Origin: an uncultured bacterium
Lineage (GTDB): Bacteria > Bacillota_I > Bacilli_A > RFN20 > CAG-826
Reading direction: 5' to 3'
NCBI GenBank assembly: GCA_949297055.1
Contig: CASFRI010000017.1
Location: forward strand, 1-32,935
DNA: 32,935 nucleotides
Below, piece by piece: positions 2,571 through 31,919 of this stretch. The notes beneath the pieces were generated by a model. The model saw nothing but the letters and a program-made list of their open reading frames with translations, was not told where the DNA came from and did no database searches. Positions within the stretch are counted from its first letter, which is position 1. Every line of letters begins with the position of its first letter. The translations under genes and the position numbers were made by a program.

Positions 2571-3973
2571 TAACCGACGCTGCCTTCCATATCAAGTTTA
2601 ATTAACTGATTTAGTTCGACCGCATATTCCATCGGTAGTTCCTTTGAAAAAGGTTCAATAAATCCCATGACAATCATTTCTTTAGCTTGTTCTTCATTTA
2701 TTCCACGTGACATAAGATAAAAGAGTTGTTCTTCATTAATTTTTGAAACAGTAGCTTCATGTTCAATATAACTACTGCCATTACCCATTTCATTTTTCGG
2801 TAAAGTATCTGATTTAGAAATGTCATTAAGAATTAAAGTATCACATTTAACACTAGCTTTCGAATGATGCGCACCTTTCATAATTCTTACTGTTCCACGA
2901 TAATTAGAAGTTCCACCATTCTTTACAATAGTTTTAGAGATGATAGTAGAAGAAGTATAAGGTGCTTCATGAATCATTCTCGCGCCAGCATCTTGATATT
3001 GTTCTTTACTCGCTACAGCGACTGATATGCAAGTTCCTTTCGCACCTTTACCTCTTAAAACACAAGCCGGATATTTCATATTGACACTGCTACCAATATT
3101 GCCATCGATCCATTCCATCAAAGCGTTTTCATAACATAATGCTCTTTTAGTCACCAAATTAACAATATTTCTAGACCAATTTTGCACAGTTGAATATCGG
3201 CATCTGGCATTTTTATGAACAAATATCTCTACCACTGCCGCATGTAAACTTTCTTTTGAATAAACTGGGGCAGTACATCCTTCAACATAATGCACATCCG
3301 CACCTTCATCGACTATGATAAGCGTTCTTTCGAACTGCCCCATCTTCTCTTGATTGATACGGAAATATGATTGTAATGGTTTTTCTAATTTAACGCCTTT
3401 AGGAACGTAGATAAAAGAACCACCTGACCACACCGCTCCATTTAAAGCAGCAAACTTATTATCACTATATGGTACTAAAGTACCAAAGTATTTTTTTACT
3501 AATTCAGGGCAGACTTTTAATGCTTGATCAGTCGATAGGAAAATGACACCTTTTTCATCGATTTCAGTAAGCATGTTATGATAGACCACTTCCGATTCAT
3601 ATTGTGCACTAACGCCAGCGAGAAATTTTTGTTCCGCTTCAGGTATACCTAAACGATCAAAAGTATGTTTGATAGTAGCAGGTACTTCTTCCCAGGTATG
3701 ACCTTCTTTTTCAGAAGTTCTAATGAAATAAGTATAGGAATCAAAATCTAAATTTGATAAATCTGGCCCAAATTTCGGTAAAGGCATAGCTTTAAAAGCG
3801 CGATAAGATTTAAGACGATATTCAAGCATCCAGTCAGGTTCATTTTTTAATTTTGAAATAGTTTTTACTACTTCTTCATTTAATCCAACGCCAGTAGACG
3901 TGACAGGTTTTACATCGTCATTAAACCCATAGGCATAAACTTCATCTTTTTTATTCTTAACATCATTTGCCAT
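2570..3973 (-). CDS. sufB: Fe-S cluster assembly scaffold protein SufB
   Basis: SufB is the main scaffold subunit of the SufBC2D complex, on which sulfur from SufS/SufU and iron are built into a cluster. The sequence closely follows Firmicute SufB from YAYGF near the N-terminus to the end [20 protein letters not shown]. It includes [12 protein letters not shown], the conserved Cys in [10 protein letters not shown] (Cys377), the YIEHEA segment and FYLMSRGI. I chose the ATG at 3973 (467 aa). A TTG three codons upstream sits only 3 nt after the GGAGG at 3990-3986 and is too close, while the ATG has 12 nt. The gene overlaps sufU by 11 nt and mnmG by 1 nt. Confidence 0.97.
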
Positions 3974-4403
3974 CTTGTTCAATGGCCTCCTTTAGAGCAT
4001 TCCAACCAATTGTCGCGCATTTGATACGAGCGGCTTGTTTATGAGTATTTTTAAATGCATTAGCCTCATCGAGAATGTCACTATCGAAAGGTTTTTCAAA
4101 AATCATATTGAAATATGATTCTAAAATGTTTTTTGCTTCTTCGATTGTTTTGCCAATTACTAAATCGCACATAATATCAGTTGAACTCGCTGTAATAGTG
4201 CACGCTACACCATCAAATAATGCATTCTTAACAACATTACCTTCTATTTCAATATAAAGAGTAATATCATCAATACAATTTTCTGAATCCTTATGAATTT
4301 GAATGTAACTAGACAAGTCATTTGGCACCTTACGGTGTCTTGGATTAGAAAAGTGATCCATGATAATGGATCTCATCATATGTTCATCAAGAGAAATAGG
4401 CAT
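3963..4403 (-). CDS. sufU: SufU-type sulfur-transfer / iron-sulfur assembly protein
   Basis: This 146-aa IscU-fold protein is of the SufU type, which in Firmicutes is a zinc-dependent sulfurtransferase taking persulfide from SufS. The N-terminus contains the usual [10 protein letters not shown]. The residues known as zinc ligands in SufU are all here: Cys43 and Asp45 in ENCIDD, Cys68 in DGVACTIT, and Cys129 in [10 protein letters not shown]. Two otherwise conserved glycines are changed: CGD reads CID, and the Gly before the second Cys is Ala. The gene overlaps sufS by 17 nt and sufB by 11 nt, so it is part of the same polycistron. The call is firm; the substitutions are reported as a separate finding. 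Confidence 0.95.
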
Positions 4404-5625
4404 CTAAAAATCCCTCACTTCCATCTAATGCTAAGCAAAGAGCATCAATTTCTTCTTTCATATTATAAAACGCTAAAGAGATGCGCACAGTTGCTAAAGA
4501 GTGAAGATGATCAATTAATATTTTAGCGCAGTGTTGACCACTTCTTGTCGCAATTCCTTTAGAATTTAAATAAGTTGATAAATCTTGGGCGAACACATCC
4601 TTTATGTTTATAGTAATAATCGCACCTTCTGCATTCTCATTATAAATAATGATATTTTTAACTTTCTTCAATTTACTTATAGCATAATGTCGTAATTCGC
4701 TTTCACGCCTTTCAATATTTGTAATACCGTAATCATTAATAAAATCAATCGCGGCTCCCAAAGCAAATATTCCTTCAAGATTTAATGTCCCGGCTTCAAG
4801 TCTTTCTGGTGCACTTAAATAACGTACATCACCACAAGCTAAAAATTTGGCATTCATACCACCACCTGAAAGAAGTGGATCCATCTTATCTAATAATTCT
4901 TTTTTACCATAAATGACACCCAAGCCAGTTGGACCATACATCTTATGCGCACTGAAAGCTAAAAAATCACAATCAATATCTATAACATCTGTTTTCATAT
5001 GCGGCACAGATTGAGCCCCATCTACGACAAAAAATGCTTTAAATTCGTGGCAAATGCGGGCCATTTCTTTAACTTCGCTCTTAAAGCCTAAGACATTTGT
5101 CACATGAGCAACACTGACAATTTTTGTTTTATTAGTAATAACTTTTTTTAAATTGTTTGCAGTTATTCTACCTTCTTCATCTAAAGGAATATAAACAATT
5201 TTAGCCTTCTTTATTTCAGCAATTTTAAACCAAGGTAATACATTAGAAGCATGTTCTGCTTCATCGATGATAATTTCATCTCCTTCTTCAACATATTTTA
5301 ATAAGCCATAAGCAATAATGTTAATTGACATTGACGCACCAGCGGTAAAAACAATTTCTTCAGGTTTTTTAGCATTGATAAAGTTAGCAACTTTTTCTCT
5401 AACACTATAGACATAGTTATCCATATTAAAGCAAAGATCATAATCACCTCTATGCGAATTAGAAGTTTTATTAAAATAGTAATCCTTAATAGCGTCAAAA
5501 ACTTGATAAGGTTTAAATGTTGTCGAAGCATTGTCTAAAAAGATAAGGGGTGAACCTTGCATAAGCTTATCTTTATCTAACATTGGAAAATTTGATCTAA
5601 TTTCATCGATATCCATCTTTTTCAT
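4387..5625 (-). CDS. sufS: Group II cysteine desulfurase SufS
   Basis: This 412-aa PLP enzyme converts cysteine to alanine and hands persulfide sulfur to SufU. The PLP Schiff-base lysine is Lys228 in FSAHKMYGPTGLG, and the PLP-binding VDGAQSVPH is at 201-209. The persulfide-carrying cysteine is Cys366 in RSGQHCAKIL, where the family usually has RAGHHCA. NASTT near residue 32 and RLEAGTLN near 275 are also typical. The ATG at 5625 overlaps the sufD stop as ATGA, with GAGG 8 nt upstream; an inner Met4 is possible but has no better site. It is translationally coupled on both sides. Confidence 0.97.
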   Translation of the reverse strand: MKKMDIDEIRSNFPMLDKDKLMQGSPLIFLDNASTTFKPYQVFDAIKDYYFNKTSNSHRGDYDLCFNMDNYVYSVREKVANFINAKKPEEIVFTAGASMSINIIAYGLLKYVEEGDEIIIDEAEHASNVLPWFKIAEIKKAKIVYIPLDEEGRITANNLKKVITNKTKIVSVAHVTNVLGFKSEVKEMARICHEFKAFFVVDGAQSVPHMKTDVIDIDCDFLAFSAHKMYGPTGLGVIYGKKELLDKMDPLLSGGGMNAKFLACGDVRYLSAPERLEAGTLNLEGIFALGAAIDFINDYGITNIERRESELRHYAISKLKKVKNIIIYNENAEGAIITINIKDVFAQDLSTYLNSKGIATRSGQHCAKILIDHLHSLATVRISLAFYNMKEEIDALCLALDGSEGFLDAYFS

Positions 5626-6344
5626 AAAATTTTCCTCAAAGAAAATAAAATATTTTCTTTTACTTTTTCATCTTCAATTTCACTAATAGCACCATGTAGA
5701 TGAGCAAGAGTTAATAATAGCTTAGCTTCATCTTCTTCAACGCCACGAGAAGTAAGATAAAACAAGGCGTTTTCATCGACTGAACCAACACTTGCGGAAT
5801 GCATAGCTTTAACATCGTCACAATCGATTGATAAAATTGGGTCCGCGCGACCAAAAGAATCGTCGTCGTAAACGATAATTTTTGCGACTTGTGAGACGCT
5901 AGCCTTATAGGCTTTTTCATAAATTTTACCAACACCAGAAAATCTAAGTTTTCCGCCTTTAAGCGAAACACCTAAATTAGTCATTGAAGCTTTAGCAAAT
6001 TTATTAAGATTAAAGGAAACGTCAATATTTTTGTTATCATTTTCCTTTGCTACGCTTGCTAAAGTCCAATCTAAAGTTGAATCAATTTCACTTAGTTCAA
6101 TATTAGCGTTTAAATTTAATAAACCATCGCTTAAATCAAAGATAGTAACGTGCATATAAGCACCTTCTTTAAGCTCGCCATTAAAAGATAAATCTTTTAC
6201 TTCTCCATTTAAGACAATAATTAATCGGAGAATGGAATTTTTTTCTAAACTGAAATTAAGATTAGAAAACTTTAAAGGACTAATATAAGTTAAGACCTTT
6301 TTTTCGTTTTGCTTTACTATCAATCTAGAATTAGTGTTACTCAT
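5622..6344 (-). CDS. sufD: Short SufD subunit of the SufBCD scaffold
   Basis: SufD pairs with SufB and binds SufC. The C-terminal half is diagnostic: DPILSIDCDDVKAMHSASVG, then LFYLTSRGVEEDEAKLLL, with the conserved His182. The protein is only about 240 aa, whereas SufD of E. coli and Bacillus has over 400. The N-terminal domain is missing and only a compact beta-helix core plus the C-terminal helices remain. I chose the ATG at 6344, which overlaps the sufC stop by 8 nt; a GTG at 6377 would overlap sufC by 41 nt and add a basic, unfamiliar leader. It sits between sufC and sufS in the Bacillus gene order C-D-S-U-B. Confidence 0.88.
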   Translation of the reverse strand: MSNTNSRLIVKQNEKKVLTYISPLKFSNLNFSLEKNSILRLIIVLNGEVKDLSFNGELKEGAYMHVTIFDLSDGLLNLNANIELSEIDSTLDWTLASVAKENDNKNIDVSFNLNKFAKASMTNLGVSLKGGKLRFSGVGKIYEKAYKASVSQVAKIIVYDDDSFGRADPILSIDCDDVKAMHSASVGSVDENALFYLTSRGVEEDEAKLLLTLAHLHGAISEIEDEKVKENILFSLRKIL

Positions 6345-7173
6345 TTTTTTCTTTAGCCCTATTCTTTTTAATCGCACAACTACCTAAGGAAATAATTTTA
6401 GGTTTGACTTCATCACCTTTCTTTAATGAAATACCATATTCTTCTTCTAACCATCCGTAGCCTTCAGCGTCAATTTTTTCGACATAACTTTTATCACCTT
6501 CAAAGACAATTCGTCCGTCAACAATGATGACAACTTTGGTTGGTTTCACGATTTCATAAAGTCTAGCGTAATGCGAAATAATTAAAATTCCTTTGCCTGC
6601 ACTTTGCTCTTTTTTAAGTGCTTTCGCAACATAGTTAATAGCGTCTACATCTAAACCACTATCGATTTCATCAACAAGATTAAAAAGTGGATTTAAGATA
6701 CGCATTTGCATTATTTCGTTTTTCTTCTTTTCTCCACCGCTAAAACCTTCATTAAGCGAACGATTAACCATATCAAAAGGAAAATTAACTTCCTTAGTGG
6801 CATTATTAAGTAATTTGTAAAATTCTGATAATGAAATAGGTTTATCTCTTCTAGCGTTAATAGCAGATCTTAAAAAATCGGCAGTTGGAACTCCTGGCAC
6901 TTCCACTGGCATTTGCATTGCTAAGAAAATTCCAAGTTTCGATCTTTCTGAAGAATTTAATTTTAAGATGTCTTGACCATCTAATAAAATTTCACCTTCG
7001 TCGACGTGATATCTAGGATGACCCATGATAGTCATTAGAAGAGTTGATTTACCATGCCCATTCGGGCCAAATAAAGCAATAGTGTCTCCTTGATTTAAGG
7101 TAAGGTCAATTCCTTTTAAGATGGCCTTCCCATCGATTGATACGTGCAGGTTTTTAATTGTTAATGTATGCAT
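6337..7173 (-). CDS. sufC: Fe-S assembly ATPase SufC
   Basis: SufC is the ABC-type ATPase of the SufBC2D scaffold. With the ATG at 7173 the protein has 278 aa. Walker A is GPNGHGKS (36-43), the SufC-type signature is FSGGEKKKNE (144-153), Walker B and the D-loop read LVDEIDSGLD (167-175), and the switch His is 201. MQMPVEVPGV in the Q-loop region is typical of SufC. The C-terminus carries about 25 extra lysine-rich residues. GAGGTGG lies just upstream of the ATG; an in-frame GTG at 7182 would fall inside that site and is rejected. It is the first gene of the operon, but I could not assign its promoter with confidence in 7174-7359. Confidence 0.97.
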   Translation of the reverse strand: MHTLTIKNLHVSIDGKAILKGIDLTLNQGDTIALFGPNGHGKSTLLMTIMGHPRYHVDEGEILLDGQDILKLNSSERSKLGIFLAMQMPVEVPGVPTADFLRSAINARRDKPISLSEFYKLLNNATKEVNFPFDMVNRSLNEGFSGGEKKKNEIMQMRILNPLFNLVDEIDSGLDVDAINYVAKALKKEQSAGKGILIISHYARLYEIVKPTKVVIIVDGRIVFEGDKSYVEKIDAEGYGWLEEEYGISLKKGDEVKPKIISLGSCAIKKNRAKEKNE

Positions 7174-7293
7174 AATTCCCACCTCGCGTGATTTATATTT
7201 TATATAATCGCTAATGATTTTACCACTGAGACGATAAAAAAGTATATAAATAGTGTTGAGGCGTTATTTATAAATAAGGACTAAAAATTCTAA

Positions 7294-7322
7294 TTGATAT
7301 TTATATTTAAGATGTATAAAAT
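7294..7322 (+). promoter_or_regulatory. Sigma-A-type promoter for the foldase-like lipoprotein pair
   Basis: TTGATA at 7294-7299 is followed after 17 nt by TAAAAT at 7317-7322; an overlapping TATAAA at 7315-7320 is preceded by TG. It lies 37 nt upstream of the ATG at 7360, with the strong ribosome binding site AAGGAGG at 7342-7348 between them. It is in the divergent region between sufC and the lipoprotein genes. No terminator or riboswitch is apparent in this gap. Confidence 0.6.
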
Positions 7323-7359
7323 AAAATACGCTATGCATACGAAGGAGGAATAATAGTAT

Positions 7360-9189
7360 ATGAAAAAAAGCAAGCTTAGTTTCGGCCTCGCTTTTACACT
7401 CTTACCACTCGTCGCGGTATCAGCGTGTTCTCCAGCAGTAACTCCTAACGATAAAAACATCGTTTCTTTTACTGATCCAAATGGTAACACTGTCGATATC
7501 CCAACCGATGATATTTATGCAAACTACAAAGTCGACAAAAATGGCGTCGAAAAATTTTATAATGCCTTAGTCGAAGTCGTAGTTCGTAACGAGATGAACA
7601 AAGAAGAATATGCGGATACAAAAGCGCATTGTGAATCTTTAGCCCGCAACCGTGTCGAAGGTTCAAAAGAACAAGCGCAAAGTAACGCAGAGGCAAATGG
7701 TACATCTTATGATGAAGAATTCGAAAGCATCTTGGATTCCAACAATTGTGAGGATGAAGAAGAATTATTCGACCTATACACTTATCAAGAAATGACAAGT
7801 GCTCTTGAAGACGAATGGTTCTCCACTGAAAAACTTTCTGAATTACTCGTCGCAAACGAAGGTTATTTTGCAACGGAAGTCCCTTATCACGTTCGCCATA
7901 TCTTAGTGAATGTTACTGCTTCCATTCCAGAAGGATTATCCATTTCTACTTCGCCATTCACTTCACAAGAAATTACATCTTCTGAAGCGGCTAAATTATC
8001 GAACGTCGTTTCCGCGTTAGTAAGCGGTAATGAATCATTTGGTACGATTGCTTATCGTTATAGTGATGATTCAAGTGGTGATACTTCCAGCCGTAACAAT
8101 TATGGTGATGTTGGTATCATGGGTCGTTCGACTTCGTTCGTCAACGAATTTAAATTAGGTCTTTATACCTACGATTTACTCTATCAAAACGATGCGACAC
8201 GTAGTCAAACACTCGAAACTGCTTTAGGTTTAGATGAAATTTATCCAGATGATGAAATCGCTACTGAATTTACAAATATGGGTTTAGATGATATTGGTAC
8301 TATCCCATATGGTGCAATTCTTAAACTTGGCCAAGTCGCTAATATTGAAACTTCCGATAACGGCGCACCAGTTAATAATGGCGTTACTTTATACTATCCA
8401 CGAAACATCCTCTTCAATAAATATTTCAACAAACACAACGTTTCCATTATCACACCAAATGATGTCACTATTTCTGATGTCGATGCAAGTGGCCGTCTTA
8501 CATCTAGCGAAGACTTCACCGGTACCTTAAATATGAATTATGTCAACAACTCAAAAGGACGTTTCCATCAAATTGCTGCTTTGGATAATCAATATGCTTT
8601 ATGTGATGAACAAGGTAATGTTATCTTAGCCGTCCGTGCTGGCAGCGGTTATGAAGGCGTACATTTCATGGTCGTACAACGTAATTACTTAGACGAAGTT
8701 GTTAACGAAGTCACTTTACAAGAATATTACACGACCGCTATTCCAGGAGAAGAAGCTTATCCTACTACCGAAGATGGTCAAGATAAAGCGACTTACGTCA
8801 ACTTCATCCGTGGTAATAATACAACTTACAATACACGTGCTAGCCAAGTAAGAGAAGCTATCATGTCTTATAATCCTTACATTACTGATGATATGTATTG
8901 GTCATTATTTGAAGAACAAAATGTCGTAATTCACGATGAAACCTTAGCGACCAAGATCGATGAATATCTTGAAACTCGTAAATTAGATGAAACATTCAAT
9001 CGTGATGAAACATTCGAAGATTCTTGGGATGCTTACATTGATTTACTTAAAATTCAACAACAACTTCGTGGTGTCAATGATGATGGCGAACCAGTCAGAT
9101 TAATTTCTGAAACATGTGCTGTTAAATTCCAAGAAGATCCTAACTCACCAGCCTTTGCTGAAGGAGGTATTTGTTATTATGCGCAATAA
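7360..9189 (+). CDS. PrsA-like foldase lipoprotein (parvulin-type peptidyl-prolyl isomerase)
   Basis: This 609-aa exported lipoprotein has a basic N-terminus, a hydrophobic segment and a lipobox VSAC with lipidated Cys23. A SurA/PrsA-like helical N-domain (about 40-165) is followed by a recognisable parvulin core: VRHILVNV at 178-185, FGTIAYRYSDD at 227-237 and YGDVGIMGRST at 248-258, matching the family's HILV, YSDD and GDLG elements. The part after about residue 330 is a long extension not found in PrsA of Bacillus (under 300 aa). The likely role is folding of exported proteins on the outer face of the membrane. AAGGAGG precedes the ATG. Codons ending in C (gtc, ttc, aac) are more frequent than in the neighbours, which suggests high expression. 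It overlaps the next gene by 11 nt. Confidence 0.82.
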   Translation: MKKSKLSFGLAFTLLPLVAVSACSPAVTPNDKNIVSFTDPNGNTVDIPTDDIYANYKVDKNGVEKFYNALVEVVVRNEMNKEEYADTKAHCESLARNRVEGSKEQAQSNAEANGTSYDEEFESILDSNNCEDEEELFDLYTYQEMTSALEDEWFSTEKLSELLVANEGYFATEVPYHVRHILVNVTASIPEGLSISTSPFTSQEITSSEAAKLSNVVSALVSGNESFGTIAYRYSDDSSGDTSSRNNYGDVGIMGRSTSFVNEFKLGLYTYDLLYQNDATRSQTLETALGLDEIYPDDEIATEFTNMGLDDIGTIPYGAILKLGQVANIETSDNGAPVNNGVTLYYPRNILFNKYFNKHNVSIITPNDVTISDVDASGRLTSSEDFTGTLNMNYVNNSKGRFHQIAALDNQYALCDEQGNVILAVRAGSGYEGVHFMVVQRNYLDEVVNEVTLQEYYTTAIPGEEAYPTTEDGQDKATYVNFIRGNNTTYNTRASQVREAIMSYNPYITDDMYWSLFEEQNVVIHDETLATKIDEYLETRKLDETFNRDETFEDSWDAYIDLLKIQQQLRGVNDDGEPVRLISETCAVKFQEDPNSPAFAEGGICYYAQ

Positions 9190-10879
9190 GAAATTATTTA
9201 TCTTTGCTGCTCTAGCAGGCGTCGTCTTAACTGGTTGTTCTGAAATAAAAGCACATCCAGGTGATTACGATGATCCTATCTTAAATAATCAAGATGGTAC
9301 AAAAGTTGATGTTGTTAACAACATCGCAAGCGTCGTCTACGATGCACTTGATGATGCAGGTACAACAAACGAACAAGTGCTTAAAACCTTGAAAATCGCA
9401 CTTGCTGAATCAATCTTTGGTACCCCTGAAGAACTCGAAGCTGCTCATACTGGTGGCGCAAGTAGCGATGCATTTAAAACATTAAAAGAATCTCATGCTT
9501 ATTACACTGAAGATATCGAAGAAACTTTATCTGATGCTGATAAGAATGCTTATTCCTTCTGGCGTTTAGAACAATTACTGGCTGAAGTTAAAGACCGTAT
9601 TCTCGATGCATTCTATGGTCTCATCATCGGCGGTGATTATAGTGATGATTCTTTATTTAGTGAAGAAAAATTCGCTAATTTCATTCGCAGTGAACTTTAC
9701 GTCGTTGAAGACCCTGCTACCGAACAATTCCCCACTACTTTCTATGAAGATGTTTTAATTACTCCAAGCAAGACTTATGAAACTATCGCAACTTGGGGTA
9801 TCCACATCGATTATTATGAAGATTATATTAGACGTGTTATCATTCCTGATATTTACGTCGACTTATTAGCGGAACAATATCTCTTCGATGAAAACTATTC
9901 ATCTTTAGGTAGAAGTTACGCGCGTAAAGTTAATTACATCGCTATTACCTCCAACGATGAATTCGCAAACGCTGCTCCTTATTTAATGCTTAACTTCATC
10001 GAACAAAACATCTTAGCGGATGAGGCTACAGCTGAAACTGCTAATTTAGAAATACTCGCTAATGCTTGGAGAGGTTACGAAGAAGATTATCTTGAAGGCG
10101 GAAATGAAACTGAACTATTAAATCTTTCTCTCGGTGCTGGTTCATTCCAATCCAAAACGACACGTGCTGAACACGGTTCTATCTCCTATTATAGCGGCAC
10201 GCAATATGGTAACATTTTAGATGATTACGATTTAATCTACGAAAATGATCCGCAAAAGAATGATCAAACTGTCGAATCTGATTTCACAAATTCCTATGCT
10301 TATACGATTGAAAAAGGTCTCGAACTTAAGACGAGAACGATGCGTACTACCGATTATACGACGGATGGTTGGTTCATTCAAAATGGTGGTTTATCAACTT
10401 TACCTTCTTGGATTAGAACAAGATTATTCAATATCGGTGTCGCTAACGCCATCGATGATATTACCGATGAAAAAGATACCTCAGTAGAAGAAGCTGACCG
10501 TGTCACTTCTAACTTCGTCCGTAAAATTAATGGTTACTACTACTTATTACCACAAACGACACAAAGTGGTAGTGAAGATGTCGACTTCTTACTTTACGAC
10601 AATGATTCTAAAACTTATTACATCATTCAAATTGAAGAAGCTGTTTCATCTTCTAAACTTAATCGTAATTCCCAAAATAATTACACCAACATCCATAACG
10701 ATCATGGTGAATATATGGAAGAAGTTGCAAGAAACATCGCTGAAACTATGGCAGAAGGCGGTAGTTATGATGATCAAGCTATCCTCTTCTACTTCGAAAA
10801 TATGGATTTACAATATTATGATGAAGATCTCTACGATTACTTCGTCGAAACTTTCCCAGATTTATTCGAAGACGATTAA
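9179..10879 (+). CDS. Foldase-like lipoprotein paralog without a recognisable parvulin motif
   Basis: This 567-aa lipoprotein begins at the ATG at 9179, which has GGAGG shortly upstream and gives a proper signal peptide with lipobox LTGC (Cys20). An upstream in-frame ATG at 9116 would bury that signal and is rejected. It resembles the preceding gene: a DG-T-VDV segment after the lipobox, an acidic helical N-domain, and an ILDDYDLIYENDPQKNDQT stretch matching YTYDLLYQNDATRSQT of the first protein. No HILV, YSDD or GDLG element can be found where the parvulin core should be. It may be a non-catalytic chaperone-like partner. It overlaps the first gene by 11 nt and is followed by a terminator, so the two form a bicistron. 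Confidence 0.72.
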   Translation: MRNKKLFIFAALAGVVLTGCSEIKAHPGDYDDPILNNQDGTKVDVVNNIASVVYDALDDAGTTNEQVLKTLKIALAESIFGTPEELEAAHTGGASSDAFKTLKESHAYYTEDIEETLSDADKNAYSFWRLEQLLAEVKDRILDAFYGLIIGGDYSDDSLFSEEKFANFIRSELYVVEDPATEQFPTTFYEDVLITPSKTYETIATWGIHIDYYEDYIRRVIIPDIYVDLLAEQYLFDENYSSLGRSYARKVNYIAITSNDEFANAAPYLMLNFIEQNILADEATAETANLEILANAWRGYEEDYLEGGNETELLNLSLGAGSFQSKTTRAEHGSISYYSGTQYGNILDDYDLIYENDPQKNDQTVESDFTNSYAYTIEKGLELKTRTMRTTDYTTDGWFIQNGGLSTLPSWIRTRLFNIGVANAIDDITDEKDTSVEEADRVTSNFVRKINGYYYLLPQTTQSGSEDVDFLLYDNDSKTYYIIQIEEAVSSSKLNRNSQNNYTNIHNDHGEYMEEVARNIAETMAEGGSYDDQAILFYFENMDLQYYDEDLYDYFVETFPDLFEDD

Positions 10880-25164: not shown

Positions 25165-25272
25165 TTCTTTATTTTTTAAAATTCCATATTTTTAGACTTT
25201 TTTCATAATGCTTTTTAAATTTTACTTGACTTATTAATAGTTAAATACCTCCAATAAATATTGTACAAAAGT

Positions 25273-25324
25273 TGAGATGATTTAGTAACGATTTTATCTT
25301 TAGATAAACAATATAATTATCTCA
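25273..25324. terminator. Nested hairpin in the convergent gap, possible two-way terminator
   Basis: The 216-nt gap 25165-25380 separates convergent genes. TGAGATGATT (25273-25282) can pair with AATTATCTCA (25315-25324) with one G-U pair. Inside it TTTATC and GATAAA form a second 6-bp stem with a 4-nt loop. Short T-rich tails lie on both sides. The stems are A+T-rich, so stability is modest. Nothing else is seen in this gap. Confidence 0.3.
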
Positions 25325-25380
25325 CCTTAGTTTTTAGATTAAATTTACGACTTTAGATTGACACTATCATCATTTTTGGT

Positions 25381-26856
25381 TCATGAAGAATGATGAATAA
25401 AGTCATAATCTACATATGGGAACGTGGTCGTTCCAATATTTCTTATTTTTAAAGTCGCATCATGAAAGAAATAATTGTTCTCTTCGTTCGTAGCCACTAA
25501 CATGTCAAAAGATATTTCGTTAACATCATCATTTGAGTCATAACTAATATTTAAAAATACCGTTGTGACATCGTAAATATCTAACTTTCCTTTCAATAAA
25601 GGATATGTTGGATCTAAACCTACGAGACGATGTTCAAATGGATCTAATCCACCCTTAACTCTTATATTTTCTTTTGATGATCCAATAAGCGCTTTATCAA
25701 AATGAATCGGATTGAAAGAATAAATGTTGCTAGCGATAGGTTCATTGCTCGTTGCTCTTAAAATATTATTTTCAACATCGACCATGAATAAGCCCAAATC
25801 TTCTTGGTAAGAATAAACTTCTAGATAATCGACGTTAACTCCTTCTAATGCAATACCATCTTCACTGACGTACATGACATATTTTTCTTCATTGTTATAT
25901 CCTATTCCAATGTCGATAGTGTAATTTTTACAATTTAGAGTGTTAATAATATCTAATGCTCGGTAAGATTCCTCATCGGAACTTGGTAGAATCATTCTTC
26001 TTGGGGCTCTAGTTAAATATTTTGAAACAAATTTACAATCTATTAATTCAACTTCTTCACCAAAGCCTTCCAGTTCATTTAAAGAACCATTCTCATTTAA
26101 AGTGATGGAAAGTTCATCGATAGGAAAATCTAATACATCGGAACTTAATAAATTTTTTAATAAGTCGTAATAATCGACGAAAGTTTCGCTAAATTGAATA
26201 TTAATTTCATTTAAGGAGACAATATTAATCATATCCGCAGTTACATTAGAAAATGGAGAAATGATGACATCATCAAAATAAGAAATTCCATCCACTGGTG
26301 CATCCACTATTTCATTATTGTTATCGATGTAGTTGTAGGCTAATAGTCCATTTTCATCTTTAAAATAAGACTCGTAATTAAAAATTAAATAAGGACTATA
26401 TGAAACATCACCAAGGTAAGAAAAATATTGCCCATATTTTGATTTATCGACAACCTTTTCAAAATAGTAATAATCAATGCTGGATTTTTCTTTAGCGAAT
26501 CCTTTAATTGATAAATTATTTTTTAAGGTATCTAAAATAATTTCTTTACTAGGATAAACTTGAATAGCAATTTCATCTTTTGCATTACCGTTTTCAGCCG
26601 TGATAGTTACTTCGCCAACACCATAAGTTTTTAAAATGCCAAATTCATCGATGGATGCGATGGATGGATTAGAGGTCGACCATTTAATTAAAGCATTAGT
26701 GGGTTCGCTAGAAGCTTTTAAATATAAAACGCTACCTTGTTCAATTCTTTCATTTTCTTCCACACCTAAAATATCGATGTTTTTAACTTCAAAGGTTGTC
26801 GTACAAGAAGTAACAAGTGTCAATAAACATAAGAAAATAGATAATTTCTTGCTCAT
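25381..26856 (-). CDS. Lipoprotein with a BIG2 domain
   Basis: This 491-aa exported lipoprotein has lipobox LVTSC with Cys18. Residues about 23-103 form a bacterial Ig-like group 2 (BIG2) domain, recognisable by IKWSTSNPSIASIDEFGILK followed by GVGEVTITAENG, a module common in surface and adhesion proteins. The remaining ~390 residues are beta-rich, acidic and not recognised. The ATG overlaps the stop of the upstream lipoprotein gene (ATGA), with GGAGA just inside that gene's last codons. It is the last gene of the exported-protein operon that begins at 30426. A surface binding role is an inference from the domain. Confidence 0.83.
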   Translation of the reverse strand: MSKKLSIFLCLLTLVTSCTTTFEVKNIDILGVEENERIEQGSVLYLKASSEPTNALIKWSTSNPSIASIDEFGILKTYGVGEVTITAENGNAKDEIAIQVYPSKEIILDTLKNNLSIKGFAKEKSSIDYYYFEKVVDKSKYGQYFSYLGDVSYSPYLIFNYESYFKDENGLLAYNYIDNNNEIVDAPVDGISYFDDVIISPFSNVTADMINIVSLNEINIQFSETFVDYYDLLKNLLSSDVLDFPIDELSITLNENGSLNELEGFGEEVELIDCKFVSKYLTRAPRRMILPSSDEESYRALDIINTLNCKNYTIDIGIGYNNEEKYVMYVSEDGIALEGVNVDYLEVYSYQEDLGLFMVDVENNILRATSNEPIASNIYSFNPIHFDKALIGSSKENIRVKGGLDPFEHRLVGLDPTYPLLKGKLDIYDVTTVFLNISYDSNDDVNEISFDMLVATNEENNYFFHDATLKIRNIGTTTFPYVDYDFIHHSS

Positions 26857-27569
26857 AAGATTAAATCTCCATTCGCATCAAACTTTGGTAGATCAATCGA
26901 ACTTTCAAAGGTTATGAGATGTTCTTCTATAGCGTTTTCTTTTTCTATCTTATATGAAATTAAATTGTAATCATCAAAAACATAAGTGTAACTTGTCATA
27001 AACGTTTCTATTCGATAGATACCTTCATCAATATCGAAGAATGTTTCTACGTTACTAACTGCATTTTTTAAAACATAGATTAGATTATCTAATGTTTCAT
27101 TTAATCTCACGTAATATCTAGAAATATAAGGTACGGCTGTTTCCTCTAATTTTTCATTGAAAGCGATATTAAATGATTCTTCATCGGAGCAGATTTTTTC
27201 ATCTTTAAAAGTTTCTACTATTTTACTGTCTTTATAAAAACGTTGAAAAGCAAAAATACGTTCTAAAATTAAAGGACTTTTTTCATACAAATAGACGTGT
27301 GATTCATTGTTATTCGCTAAAGTAATTTCATGATAAATTTGTTCTTGCTCATCATAAGAAGCTCTGACTTCCCCAACTAAAGAATTGTTCTCGTAATATT
27401 TACTATTGATTGTAATCGAAGATGGGTTAACTTTATCTACGATATCACCTTTTATAATTTCTAATTTACTTATGGCTAAATCGATAGGATCACTATTAGT
27501 TTCAAAAGTATTACATCCCACGATTGTAGTAAGAGAAAATAACGTCAATAAAAGTGATACTTTTTTCAT
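26853..27569 (-). CDS. Lipoprotein of unknown function
   Basis: This 238-aa protein has an N-terminal signal and lipobox IVGC (Cys19). The mature part is mostly beta-strand by residue pattern with many Glu/Asp and Tyr and no motif I can name. Its general layout (alternating hydrophobic and charged stretches, a conserved-looking ASYDEQEQIYHEITLAN segment) recalls small surface beta-sandwich lipoproteins. GAGG lies about 10 nt before the ATG. It sits 11 nt after the preceding small lipoprotein gene and overlaps the BIG2 lipoprotein by 4 nt. Confidence 0.75.
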   Translation of the reverse strand: MKKVSLLLTLFSLTTIVGCNTFETNSDPIDLAISKLEIIKGDIVDKVNPSSITINSKYYENNSLVGEVRASYDEQEQIYHEITLANNNESHVYLYEKSPLILERIFAFQRFYKDSKIVETFKDEKICSDEESFNIAFNEKLEETAVPYISRYYVRLNETLDNLIYVLKNAVSNVETFFDIDEGIYRIETFMTSYTYVFDDYNLISYKIEKENAIEEHLITFESSIDLPKFDANGDLIL

Positions 27570-27580
27570 TCGTTATTACC

Positions 27581-28051
27581 TCAAAGATGCTTCAAAGCAT
27601 CGTGATTAATATTTAAATAATCACATGTCTCTAATAAAATTTCATATTCTTCATCAGTTAAATCATAATGTAGATAGTTTTTCTCTACTGGACAAGAAAC
27701 GTAAAAAATTTGAAATCCATCTATATCAAGAGGTATATCTTTGTTACTTCCAAAACGATAAAACAAAATATCTTTCATAATTGGAAGAGGACAAGGATAG
27801 AACTTTTGTAAGTACAATATTTCAGTATAAAACGTACTAGCAGAATAATAACCATTTCGATATGTTAAAGCCGTTTCAACCATCCCATTATATTCCCAAA
27901 CGAAAAGTCGACCTCTCATAGAATCGTAATATAAAGAATAATCAATATCTTCATAATGTCTTTCACCAAATATACCAGGCGAGCCCATCGCTTGAGAACA
28001 AGAAACAGTCATTACTAAAAATAAAGGTAATAAAAACTTAGGAGATTTCAT
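27581..28051 (-). CDS. Small lipoprotein of unknown function
   Basis: This 156-aa protein has a short hydrophobic signal ending MTVSC (Cys18). The -3 residue is Thr, which is less usual than Leu or Val but acceptable. The mature region has many Tyr and no family I know. The start overlaps the stop of the two-module hydrolase gene (ATGA). Its GGAGG is built from the Gly-Gly codons near the end of that gene, about 10 nt before the ATG, so translation is tightly coupled. It is the second gene of the operon. Confidence 0.72.
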   Translation of the reverse strand: MKSPKFLLPLFLVMTVSCSQAMGSPGIFGERHYEDIDYSLYYDSMRGRLFVWEYNGMVETALTYRNGYYSASTFYTEILYLQKFYPCPLPIMKDILFYRFGSNKDIPLDIDGFQIFYVSCPVEKNYLHYDLTDEEYEILLETCDYLNINHDALKHL

Positions 28052-30426
28052 TGTCTATTGCCTCCTATAATTGTTGTTGTTTTAACAGCATAGAAACCGA
28101 CAAAAACAGAATAATTGTGAGAACCTTGAACACCAAAATCATCATAAACAATATCATATTCTTGAGCACAATTTTTAGGATCATAAATTACTTGTCCATC
28201 GCCATCTAAATTAGTGGGAATTCCGCTTTGGCCTAATTTATGAGACCAAGTTCCATCTGCGTTTTGCCGATAAAAATGATAATCTGGATGAAGTATATTG
28301 TTGTCAAACACCAAAGCAATTTTATAAAATCCTGATGGGCATTCTTCATATTTTTCTATTGGTAAAATTGAGTATGAATAATCTGACGCTCTATCAAATA
28401 AACAATCTTCTAACTCATCAGGAGTCGCTAGTTTTAAATTAACATTATTACATAAAAAATCTAATCCAACTTTCGAATTCAAAGCATAATTATAACAATT
28501 TAGTTGCAAAGCAGAATCATCATTCCATAACTCTGGAATAAATGGTAATTCGCTATCACCTGTCGGCATGTAATTTTCAACATCGTAAAAGGCAACATTT
28601 CCAATACATATTCTTCCTCTGTTATTGTTATTACTTGGCGTGATGTTAGTTTTTGCATAGATTCTTATGTGACTGGTGGGTTCATTAAATTTAATGCTAA
28701 AAAAATCAGGATTATTTCTATCTCTAGTCAAATTAGTCTCATCTGAAAGCAGATCTAATTTGGTAATCCAAGCACCATTTTTGTATTCTTGTAAAACCGC
28801 TAAGCCATTTGTATTGTCTAATTGCTCGGTTGAAAAATCTCGCCAATGAGCCAATTCGATATCAAGTTGAATAATTGGTGTATCAAATAAATATTCTATG
28901 TAGGCTTCATCGAAACCTTTTCTAATTGGAGACAAAACAATAAATTCATTATGAATATAGCCCGCTCTAAGTCTTCTTGTCGTGAAAGAAAAATTAGAAA
29001 GATTATGTTCAGCTACAATTTCACTACTACTATATGCATCTGGAAAGTTATATTCATTTGGAGCAATATTTGGTAGCCTAAAATATTCTGTTGGCATAGT
29101 GAGATTCAATGCAGATATACGATCTTCTATTGCTTTTAGGCTTCCTAGTGTGCCACCAGAGTCAATCTTTTTATGTTCAGCATGAACGAATATTTTATAA
29201 TTTCTTTGTTTCAACTTCTCTTGCAAATTTTTCCACTCTGAAATGCTTAATGTATATGAGGTTCGTGATAGATGAACTTCTCTTTCTTCCCCAGTATAAC
29301 TAACATCACTTACAAGTTCTAAAACAAAATAAACTTCATATGTATCTCGGCTATACCAATTTTCCTTGAATAAAGAGTCCCAATAAATAGTTGGTGCCAT
29401 GTCAATATAATTATTACGAATTTGAACATTCCTTGGGGATATATATGTGCAAGCACACACGCCACCATCGCTATCGCCGAGTCTACGATAATTAAATGAA
29501 TGGCGATGTAGAGTGTTAGGAAAATCTAAGGAAACAGCATAGTAAATTGCATTCGATTCAAAATTATCTAATGAAATATGAGACAAAGTCTTGCCTGTGG
29601 ATTCTTCTCTCCAACCTGTATGAACGTAAATATCATTTAAATTTTCATCATAATCACAAGCAATCATGGCATGATATTTTTTATCTTCTACTGGGCCATA
29701 CCTTGCGACAATTAAAACTGGTTTTCCTTCCTTTAATTTTTCTATTGTAAATGTGTCTGCATTAGCTTCGTCTTGGTAATTTATTTCAACATTTAAAGTA
29801 GATGAATTTAATAAATTAAAATAATTGTCAATTAATGAAGGAATCATTTTAGGCATTACACCGAAGTCAAGCGAATTAACATTCAGATTGGTTTTTAAAA
29901 AATTAATACCTTGATCGATTAATTTTAAATGAAAATAAGTATTTTTGTTTTGGCTAATAAAATCAAGATATTCTTCGCCCGTAAGATTTTTTACATCTTC
30001 GTCTGATTCAAAAAGTATGCCTGGCGATTCTGTGTCCATTTGCGGTGAAGATAATGATGACGAAAAAATGGATTTTTTGTCGAAATTTTCAGGAATAATG
30101 TCATCATTCCAATATGAATCGTAGTAAGATAAGAGCATTCCAATAGCTACATAAGTGCAAGAATTAAAAACGTTATTGCCAAAATTTGTTCTTAAATTTT
30201 TAAAATATAGAGGAGCATAATTATTTTTCAAAAAAATGTTTTCTTCGTTCTCACATGAATTAAAGATATCATCTGCTTCAGCAGTTCCTAATTTTGATCT
30301 AGATAAGATACCATAATCTACATTGTAGTTTGCATACGAAACAAAGGAAGATGACGTCAACAATAAACAAGAAGATAAAAAACATATTAGACAATTATTT
30401 TGTTTCCATTTTTTAGCTTTGAACAT
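28048..30426 (-). CDS. Large exported protein with two cysteine-hydrolase-like modules
   Basis: This 792-aa protein starts at the ATG at 30426 and has an N-terminal basic and hydrophobic signal (CLICFLSSCLLLTSS). Module 1 (about 75-300) looks like a C39-like papain-fold peptidase: NSCTYVAIGMLLSYYDSYW with Cys90, and KKYHAMIACDYD with His252 followed by DIYVHTGW. A middle part (about 490-620) reads as a beta-sandwich, discoidin-like binding region. Module 2 (about 640-780) starts with LNCYNYAL (Cys644) and carries DYHFYRQNADGTWSHK with His717 and His729. This resembles an NlpC/P60- or CHAP-like Cys/His arrangement I have seen in Firmicute exported proteins. Substrates may be peptides, cell-wall peptides or glycoproteins. 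It leads an operon of three lipoproteins. Alternative: only one module is active. Confidence 0.72.
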   Translation of the reverse strand: MFKAKKWKQNNCLICFLSSCLLLTSSSFVSYANYNVDYGILSRSKLGTAEADDIFNSCENEENIFLKNNYAPLYFKNLRTNFGNNVFNSCTYVAIGMLLSYYDSYWNDDIIPENFDKKSIFSSSLSSPQMDTESPGILFESDEDVKNLTGEEYLDFISQNKNTYFHLKLIDQGINFLKTNLNVNSLDFGVMPKMIPSLIDNYFNLLNSSTLNVEINYQDEANADTFTIEKLKEGKPVLIVARYGPVEDKKYHAMIACDYDENLNDIYVHTGWREESTGKTLSHISLDNFESNAIYYAVSLDFPNTLHRHSFNYRRLGDSDGGVCACTYISPRNVQIRNNYIDMAPTIYWDSLFKENWYSRDTYEVYFVLELVSDVSYTGEEREVHLSRTSYTLSISEWKNLQEKLKQRNYKIFVHAEHKKIDSGGTLGSLKAIEDRISALNLTMPTEYFRLPNIAPNEYNFPDAYSSSEIVAEHNLSNFSFTTRRLRAGYIHNEFIVLSPIRKGFDEAYIEYLFDTPIIQLDIELAHWRDFSTEQLDNTNGLAVLQEYKNGAWITKLDLLSDETNLTRDRNNPDFFSIKFNEPTSHIRIYAKTNITPSNNNNRGRICIGNVAFYDVENYMPTGDSELPFIPELWNDDSALQLNCYNYALNSKVGLDFLCNNVNLKLATPDELEDCLFDRASDYSYSILPIEKYEECPSGFYKIALVFDNNILHPDYHFYRQNADGTWSHKLGQSGIPTNLDGDGQVIYDPKNCAQEYDIVYDDFGVQGSHNYSVFVGFYAVKTTTIIGGNRQ

Positions 30427-30433
30427 ATTTTTA

Positions 30434-30462
30434 ATTATCGCATGCAATGAGGAGCTTATCAA
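30434..30462 (-). promoter_or_regulatory. Promoter of the exported hydrolase/lipoprotein operon; leaderless
   Basis: On the minus strand TTGATA (30462-30457) and GATAAT (30439-30434) are exactly 17 nt apart, with TGC before the -10 giving an extended TGnGATAAT. Seven nt separate the -10 box from the ATG at 30426 and no ribosome binding site is present. An in-frame TTG at 30462 is simply the start of the -35 box. Confidence 0.72.
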
Positions 30463-30695
30463 GATACCATTAGTTATTTGATACCGTTCGTTAACTTACA
30501 AACTCATTACAACAAATAGATAATTAATAGCGCTTTTAAGAGTTGTTTATGCAACTTTTTATTCAATGAACTAAATCACTTCTAAAAAATTAAAGAGTTA
30601 ACTTGACGTAGCGATATTTGATTCGCTTAATTCTAAAGTATGGTATTAACAAAAGCTGTTAAAAGACGTATATCATCATCAAACATCATCGCTAT
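30463..30695. other. Gene-free A+T-rich spacer
   Basis: No supported gene was found here. A 5-bp inverted repeat with a T-run lies at 30541-30560 and a TTGACG at 30603-30608 lacks a clear -10. A 27-codon open frame at 30640-30723 has no ribosome binding site and is not called. Confidence 0.6.
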
Positions 30696-31919
30696 CTACA
30701 ATAACGATACTGGGATTAAATAGCAGTCTCGATTAATTGGGGTGATAGAATCACTCATACATATGACTAAGCCAGGTTTGACTTTCAATTTAAATTTATT
30801 TAAAACGGAGAAATTTTTATCTGGTTTATTTGGTTCTTTGCTCTTTTTAATTTCAATCGGATAAATTGCATCTGCAGTAACAATCAACAAATCAATCTCT
30901 TTTTTATCTATGTCTCGATAATAGTATAGGTTATTAATAGGCTTTCCACTATTATAGTAACTTTTAACTATTTCACTCACGACGTAAGTTTCTAAAATAG
31001 CCCCATCCATATTCCCAGACTCTAAGGTTTCGGCATTAGGCCAACGGCATAAATAACTAGCGAGCCCTGTATCCATGAAATATAGTTTAGGAGTTTTTAC
31101 GAGCCTATTAGTAATATTTGAATGATACGGATGAAGGATGAAAATAACTCCACTTCTTTCTAAGATAGTTATCCAAGACTTAATCGTAGGAGAAGAAACA
31201 CCAATTTGTTTGGAAATCTCATCGTACTTAAGTTCTTGACCTGTTCTAGCGGCAATAAAAACTAAAAAATCATAAAATTCGTTTAGTTTTCCAACTTGTG
31301 ATAAATCTTTGATATCACGTTCAAGATAGGTATTTATGTAATCGCTGTAATATTTTTCTTTATCCACATCACTAGCGATAATTTTAGGCATCCCACCTTT
31401 GAAGATTAATTCATATATCTCGTTCGTATTACGATATTTATAAGGAACTTTTTTAAGGAAATCTACATCAGGATTAAACGTGCCATAATTTCTTTTTTCT
31501 ATTTCTTGTTTAGATAAAGAGGACAATTCAAAGATAGCAACTCTTCCCGCTAAAGATTCGGAAATATCTTTCATCATCAAAAATTTTTGCGAGCCTGTAA
31601 GCCAAAATAAACCATTAGGATTTTTCCCTTCGTAAGATAATTTATCCACTATATCTTTTATTTTTTCTAGGATGGAAGGAACTTTTTGAAATTCATCGAT
31701 TAAGATAGGAGGGCTATATGTTTCGAAAAATAAAGAAGGATCTTCTATCGCTAATTTTCTCGCTAATCTATCATCAAAACTAACATATTTTCTATTCTGT
31801 TCTTTGATATGATTTAACAAAGTGGTTTTACCAACTTGGCGTTGTCCGCAAACCATTATAACAGGATACTTTTTACTATTTTCTAAAATTATTTGTTCAA
31901 TATTTCTGTCAATATACAT
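30696..31919 (-). CDS. AAA ATPase with DUF4143 C-terminal domain
   Basis: This 407-aa protein of the AAA_14/DUF4143 family is common as a stand-alone accessory ATPase of unknown biological role. Walker A is GQRQVGKTT (25-33), Walker B is ILIDEFQKV (72-80), sensor 1 is WLTGSQKF (106-113), and a likely arginine finger lies in ESLAGRV (Arg126). The C-terminal DUF4143 part holds a nuclease-like pattern EIDLLIVTADAIYPIEIKKS, with Asp and a Glu-x-Lys pair as in PD-(D/E)xK folds. GGGAGG stands 7 nt before the ATG, a strong site unlike the leaderless genes nearby. It appears monocistronic and sits in an accessory-looking segment. Confidence 0.93.
   Translation of the reverse strand: MYIDRNIEQIILENSKKYPVIMVCGQRQVGKTTLLNHIKEQNRKYVSFDDRLARKLAIEDPSLFFETYSPPILIDEFQKVPSILEKIKDIVDKLSYEGKNPNGLFWLTGSQKFLMMKDISESLAGRVAIFELSSLSKQEIEKRNYGTFNPDVDFLKKVPYKYRNTNEIYELIFKGGMPKIIASDVDKEKYYSDYINTYLERDIKDLSQVGKLNEFYDFLVFIAARTGQELKYDEISKQIGVSSPTIKSWITILERSGVIFILHPYHSNITNRLVKTPKLYFMDTGLASYLCRWPNAETLESGNMDGAILETYVVSEIVKSYYNSGKPINNLYYYRDIDKKEIDLLIVTADAIYPIEIKKSKEPNKPDKNFSVLNKFKLKVKPGLVICMSDSITPINRDCYLIPVSLL

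Follow-up and report, generated by a model that had tools for sequence, protein, structure and literature searches.

An operon of a predicted exported two-module cysteine protease and three lipoproteins, its candidate cognate inhibitors, in an uncultured bacterium of the Bacilli

Why should an exported enzyme with two separate sets of cysteine hydrolase residues be encoded together with three lipoproteins? The question is raised by a locus at positions 25381-30462, minus strand, of contig CASFRI010000017.1 (assembly GCA_949297055.1), from an uncultured bacterium of the lineage CAG-826 (Bacilli_A). The window is the whole stretch analysed, 32,935 nucleotides (nt) of this contig. A sequence-only reading had proposed that the four genes form a co-made surface system, in which lipoproteins could be receptors, inhibitors or immunity proteins for a secreted hydrolase. 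The analysis suggests that the enzyme probably belongs to a family of exported head-swapping proteases that is partly phage-borne, with the lipoproteins as its probable cognate inhibitors (immunity proteins).

Inspection of the open reading frames (ORFs) confirmed four minus-strand genes, in the order enzyme (28048-30462), lp1 (27581-28051, 156 aa), lp2 (26853-27569, 238 aa) and lp3 (25381-26856, 491 aa). All four have export signals, and in gene order the first and third junctions are 4-nt ATGA overlaps and the second is an 11-nt gap, just as had been read from the letters. The enzyme is 804 aa long from a TTG and 792 aa from the ATG at 30426; the ATG yields a normal signal peptide and the numbering of the earlier reading, and residue numbers here are those of the 792-aa version. 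At its N-terminus, each lipoprotein has a signal sequence followed by a lipobox-type Cys (lp1 ..TVSC, lp2 ..IVGC, lp3 ..VTSC), so that the lipobox cysteines noticed before were all recovered. A full, diverged second copy of the operon with the gene order kept was observed on contig C8 of the same genome (identities of 44 % for the enzyme, 37 % for lp1, 26 % for lp2 and 31 % for lp3), with an additional 634-aa BIG2 lipoprotein upstream. Because the same order recurs as a diverged copy elsewhere in the genome, the four-gene arrangement is not due to chance. The operon had no match in Rfam or PADLOC, nor among plasmid records.

The enzyme ORF comprises, in order, the signal peptide, module A, an Ig/FN3-like stretch, module B and module C. 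The module limits (A, about 54-302; B, 449-617; C, about 620-783) were taken from nine full-length relatives and a 43-member set. An AlphaFold2 model of the enzyme reached a pLDDT of 85.3 and a pTM of 0.71; in a fold search with the whole model, the match list was filled by module B. Module A (29521-30267, minus strand) matched phytochelatin synthase Alr0975 (2bu3) with a Z of 10.6 over 173 residues and the C. rodentium CdiA-CT toxin with a Z of 9.1 in VIA-align, and on its predicted structure it is a papain-like (clan CA) fold with Cys90, His252 and His269 as putative catalytic residues. The structure prediction and fold search suggested by the sequence-only reading thus brought out a papain-like fold for the first module. 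Cys90 and His252 are conserved in 28 of 28 A modules, and position 269 is His or Asn in 27 of 27 aligned residues. NF045837 (Mplas_Cys_pep, a mycoplasma putative cysteine peptidase family), a remote relative of module A, was matched by 26 of the 43 members of alignment A5; its curated cut-off of 45 bits was not reached by the window enzyme (25.8 bits) or its paralog (38.7 bits). The C39-like fold named earlier was not reached at the Pfam level, the window enzyme scoring 15 bits against the Peptidase_C39_2 gathering cut-off of 24; the relative L019 exceeds it with 31.2 bits.

Module C (28078-28572, minus strand), defined by the 21-member alignment A7, is a putative cysteine hydrolase. Its Cys644 and His717 occur in 26 of 26 modules, which bears out the second Cys/His pair of the earlier reading as fully as the first, and the third residue (His729 in the window enzyme) is mostly His. 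In the predicted model the order Cys644-His717-His729 is accompanied by a helix and then strands. We take a Cys, a His and a further His 12 residues on to be an NlpC/P60-like order, which is suggestive only; the NlpC/P60-like alternative of the sequence-only reading found no Pfam match among the 21 module C members at E 1. DUF7689 is a relative of module C, with Pfam matches in 5 of the 21 members (best 6.8e-6), a score above the cut-off in the relative L059 and no match for the window enzyme by itself. Sequence-profile matches of module C in the PDB were short and only to designed 'Cake' propellers, and were taken as chance; in PHROGs, module C had no match above the E 0.001 threshold.

The beta-rich middle region seen earlier corresponds to module B (28576-29082, minus strand), a beta-sandwich resembling reelin and the carbohydrate-binding module (CBM) families CBM29 and CBM8 with fold Z values of 10-12. 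Many different heads are carried on module B, namely trypsin-like (L050, E 1e-7), other C39-like (L019) and subtilisin-like (L029, L037 and the second protein of phage PV036447, E 1e-22 to 1e-28). This second exported B-module protein of the phage lies among tail genes (PV036447.1 43119-45632, L142 23120-25633). A third relative in the window genome, on contig C15, has only module B in common with the enzyme. It is a 765-aa protein (L005 9386-12723) with another papain-like-looking head and a C-terminal 'NCSHFAIEIWN' motif, located between a lipoprotein gene and a membrane protein gene.

Of 146 genomes belonging to the bacterial family, 34 contain the enzyme family; it was also detected at 66 loci in named genomes, chiefly those of gut and rumen Bacilli and Clostridia. 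A neighbour was scored when it was adjacent, on the same strand, within 100 nt and passed a lipobox rule. By this measure a lipoprotein gene lay directly beside 46 of the 73 non-redundant enzyme genes. The corresponding figures were 54 of 822 for the other genes of these loci (Fisher p 3e-30) and 8 of 173 for those other genes that are exported (p 1e-22); the counts treat related loci as separate, and many loci are from metagenome-assembled genomes (MAGs). Several of the remaining enzyme loci do have a lipoprotein that this crude rule, or the start chosen for the ORF, failed to register. What recurs is the pair of an exported enzyme and a small lipoprotein, not the four genes of the supposed co-made system. 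The four travel together in the C8 copy, whereas lp2 and near-full-length lp3 accompany lp1 in this genus only and relatives of the enzyme have many unrelated partner families.

Clustering of the partners gave ten families with at least two loci each, 45 loci in all. Families c1 (BamE-like and similar to beta-lactamase inhibitory protein, BLIP), c3 (lp1), c6 and c15 occur with C-containing enzymes only, and c2, c4, c7, c13, c14 and c17 only with enzymes having A but not C; no family is common to C-containing and C-lacking enzymes. When the labels were shuffled 20,000 times, the sorting was never as clean, whether all loci, those of Bacilli or those outside Bacilli were taken. Taxonomy does not explain this sorting, because the C modules accompanied by c1 come from Bacilli, Clostridia, a Chloroflexi and a Treponema record. 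In the PDB, the profile of this family matched, among others, BLIP, BamE and the type VI secretion system immunity protein BtiO, all weakly (E 0.01-0.3). The lp1 family, with a motif of the lipobox Cys, W52, Q82, C87 and P121, was found in 13 of 224 genomes of the bacterial family, solely beside C-containing enzymes or as an orphan. Behind one full-length enzyme, three near-identical tandem lipoproteins were observed (L035 8152-9865), with relatives as a pair in L036.

The correspondence between partner and module was most evident in enzymes with a trypsin-like head. In L050, a trypsin head with module B has a single lipoprotein, X. In L059, the enzyme consists of trypsin head, B and C, and X lies upstream and lp1 downstream. 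An enzyme of the same make-up, 57 % identical to that of L059, is encoded by phage PV036447 (Anaeroplasmataceae phage NatCom_34063, human faeces), where a single lipoprotein 14 nt downstream is an lp1 domain fused to X (the lp1 domain 37 % identical to L059 lp1, the X part with E about 1e-10). These sequences are most naturally read as giving each catalytic module a partner domain of its own, lp1 in the case of C and X in that of the trypsin head. The enzyme-partner pair was located between holin and recombinase genes in PV036447 and in IMGVR_UViG_3300013382_000213. The related phage contig L138 has a lipoprotein gene in this position too, again flanked by holin and recombinases, together with an A + B enzyme gene that is disrupted and split over two frames (5830-7665); the neighbouring lipoprotein is still open.

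The lipoproteins were also retained without the enzyme. Among four congeneric genomes, the enzyme is present in the window genome only, and G057 and G033 showed no enzyme match even at E 1. G057 has the lp1-lp2-lp3 trio at the site of the C8 copy, with flanks 88-89 % identical and 4.36 kb missing. This deletion takes out the entire enzyme and most of the upstream BIG2 lipoprotein, whose signal peptide and lipobox are joined in frame to mature lp1; all three trio genes are open, with dN/dS values of 0.16 for lp1, 0.13 for lp2 and 0.20 for lp3. In G033 the trio is at a different site near a contig end, with 178 bases left upstream and no enzyme there. Between L117 (6086-8928) and L004, the dS of the trio is 0.22-0.34, about half of the 0.57-0.79 of flanking housekeeping genes, which hints at a recent transfer or recombination between congeners. 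Among the housekeeping genes of other genera, lp1 is found singly or as arrays with up to four members (L123, L124). An orphan lp1 close to a c1-type orphan was observed in L127 (5430-7059); the two BamE/BLIP-like and lp1 orphans surround an XRE-type regulator, with a subtilase-like protein adjoining, and the stretch looks like a small immunity island. In L120, two exported C39-like-looking proteins of about 350 aa (3790-4842 and 8326-9375) lie on either side of an orphan lp1, each adjoining an ABC transporter-like gene.

Enzyme-less retention, orphan arrays and module-matched partners therefore favour inhibitors or immunity proteins among the roles that the sequence-only reading had left side by side. 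A receptor or anchor as the main role was judged less likely, as the lipoproteins outlive the enzyme. The setting of the host was also considered. Its genome is reduced (1.06 Mb, 97.85 % complete), and no penicillin-binding transpeptidase (PBP) and no FtsW/RodA (SEDS) gene was found in it; a transpeptidase was not found in 72 of 76 genomes of the family, whereas the same search was positive for 10 of the 14 controls. Among related orders of Bacilli, families deficient in peptidoglycan have been described (PMC10868615). Since the host lacks peptidoglycan synthesis genes, an exported protease would meet exposed lipoproteins of self and kin.

In the proposed mechanism, the exported protease would combine the papain-like head A, the binding module B and the second putative cysteine hydrolase module C, and the lipoproteins would be surface-anchored cognate inhibitors. 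For lp1, the most likely role is to bind module C and block it; lp2, lp3 or both may protect against module A or work on the substrate. Without such protection, the exposed lipoproteins of the producer could be attacked by its own protease as well as by a neighbour's; inhibition would shield the surfaces of producer and bystander alike. Enzyme-partner pairs would travel between strains and phages, with heads and partners exchanged, and strains that lose the enzyme would retain the lipoproteins. The presumed targets are related or competing wall-less bacteria; a target on related bacteria would agree with the occurrence of the lipoproteins as orphans. A broader picture is put forward more tentatively, as a plausible extension: wall-less gut Bacilli and temperate phages may engage in contact-independent surface warfare by signal-peptide-exported, head-swapping proteases, each catalytic module (A, trypsin-like head, C) having its own lipoprotein antidote that parallels the enzyme in being fused or split, and collections of antidotes being kept without the enzyme.

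Known systems offer parallels for such an arrangement. Staphopain/staphostatin, SpeB/Spi and Bacteroides C10/Bfi likewise place a small inhibitor gene adjacent to that of an exported papain-like cysteine protease in the same operon, and Bfi1B and Bfi4 have lipoprotein signals (PMC2873492). The layout here, a small lipoprotein gene adjacent and co-directional, is of this type, in which the partner would inhibit the protease. The present system differs in its two catalytic modules plus binding module, several lipoproteins, module-sorted partners, orphan arrays and phage carriage, and the lp1 profile showed no relation to staphostatin or Spi in Pfam and PDB. Polymorphic toxin/immunity systems, whose toxin domains include papain-like and NlpC/P60 ones (PMC3482391), and, as a precedent, the papain-like toxin Cpe1 paired with Cpi1 (PMC12136450) share swappable catalytic domains, an adjacent cognate partner, orphan partners, tandem arrays and accessory location; orphan and tandem partner genes, and a swappable catalytic domain on a common carrier with the partner following the domain, were all observed here. 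In contrast to those toxins, the catalytic variation is at the N-terminal head on a common module B and the partners are lipoproteins, a single immunity family (Imm65) having been lipoprotein-like in the 2012 survey (PMC3482391). The enzyme has a signal peptide only, and no Pfam domain of a delivery leader (WXG/LXG, PAAR, CdiA, Rhs). Strings of non-identical immunity genes, and orphan immunity in toxin-less strains, are known for S. aureus EsaD/EsaG and TspA/TsaI and for streptococcal TipC, which has a lipoprotein signal (PMC9484751); these depend on type VII secretion, and no relation to the operon proteins was seen. Orphan rfab1 is a further precedent (PMC8406203).

Several points weigh against the inhibitor reading or limit the evidence for it. 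The shuffle counts are not probabilities, because the loci are related. No pair of partner families was related in profile comparison, therefore a common role rests on position and sorting; one common partner fold was rejected, as neither lp1 and the BLIP/BamE-like family nor any other family pair matched. The lp1 model was poor (pLDDT 53), and the lp1 profile found no Pfam or PDB relative. A lipoprotein neighbour is missing beside at least one B protein with a subtilisin head (L037:2972-5539). The dN/dS values of the G057 trio come from two genomes and cannot split the time before from the time after enzyme loss, and some MAG contigs, as in G033, end close to the loci.

These points have to be set beside the rival explanations. 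The enzyme could instead be directed at host proteins such as immunoglobulins or mucins, with the lipoproteins capturing substrate or holding the enzyme at the surface, as in mycoplasma MIB-MIP. The resemblance of module A to the mycoplasma family NF045837, the cleavage of IgG by mycoplasma CysP (PMC8593674), which may or may not be a member of that family, the CBM-like module B and the mostly gut or rumen carriers speak for this. We consider it unlikely as the main explanation, given that two congeners and the orphan arrays keep lipoproteins in the absence of the enzyme, that partners match single catalytic modules and that the pairs are phage cargo. A host target is possible all the same, and bacterial and host targets can coexist. 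Phage carriage and the variation of partner families with the catalytic module also argue against nutrient scavenging, in which the enzyme would digest proteins, peptides (or muropeptides) extracellularly and the lipoproteins would bind the products for uptake. The reduced genome and the combination of an exported hydrolase with lipoproteins would suit such a role, but no transporter genes were found in the window operon or its C8 copy, and its probability is lower again. The position between holin and recombinase genes in two phage sequences might point to a lysis or superinfection cassette spread to chromosomes, with an endolysin-like enzyme and a lipoprotein protecting the lysogen. Signal peptides, large modular proteases, a chromosomal operon among ordinary genes and a host clade mostly without cell-wall synthesis make this the least probable of the three, and very improbable.

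If the inhibitor reading is true, wall-less, mostly uncultured gut bacteria would have an exported protease family whose lipoprotein partners reveal its modular make-up. Several unrelated, unannotated lipoprotein families would gain a role, a function could be proposed for DUF7689-type domains, phages would be identified as carriers, and pairs that match or mismatch (C with lp1, trypsin head with X) would be available for direct testing.

The BIG2 domain reported earlier for one of the lipoproteins was confirmed in part. The N-terminal BIG2-like domain of lp3 stays below the Pfam Big_2 cut-off (E 7e-4, 20 bits against 22.8), whereas its paralog passes with 23.4 bits; lp3 recurs in the trio of the congeners, and lp2 in the second copy and two enzyme-less congener copies. 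The operon lies in an accessory segment (25183-31840) that is missing from the congener G075: blastn of L133 against the window revealed an empty site whose flanking matches are separated by 5 bp. The segment contains the operon and most of the adjoining DUF4143 ATPase gene (30696-31919), whose product is a match to PDC-S01, a candidate defence family in PADLOC (E 3e-101).
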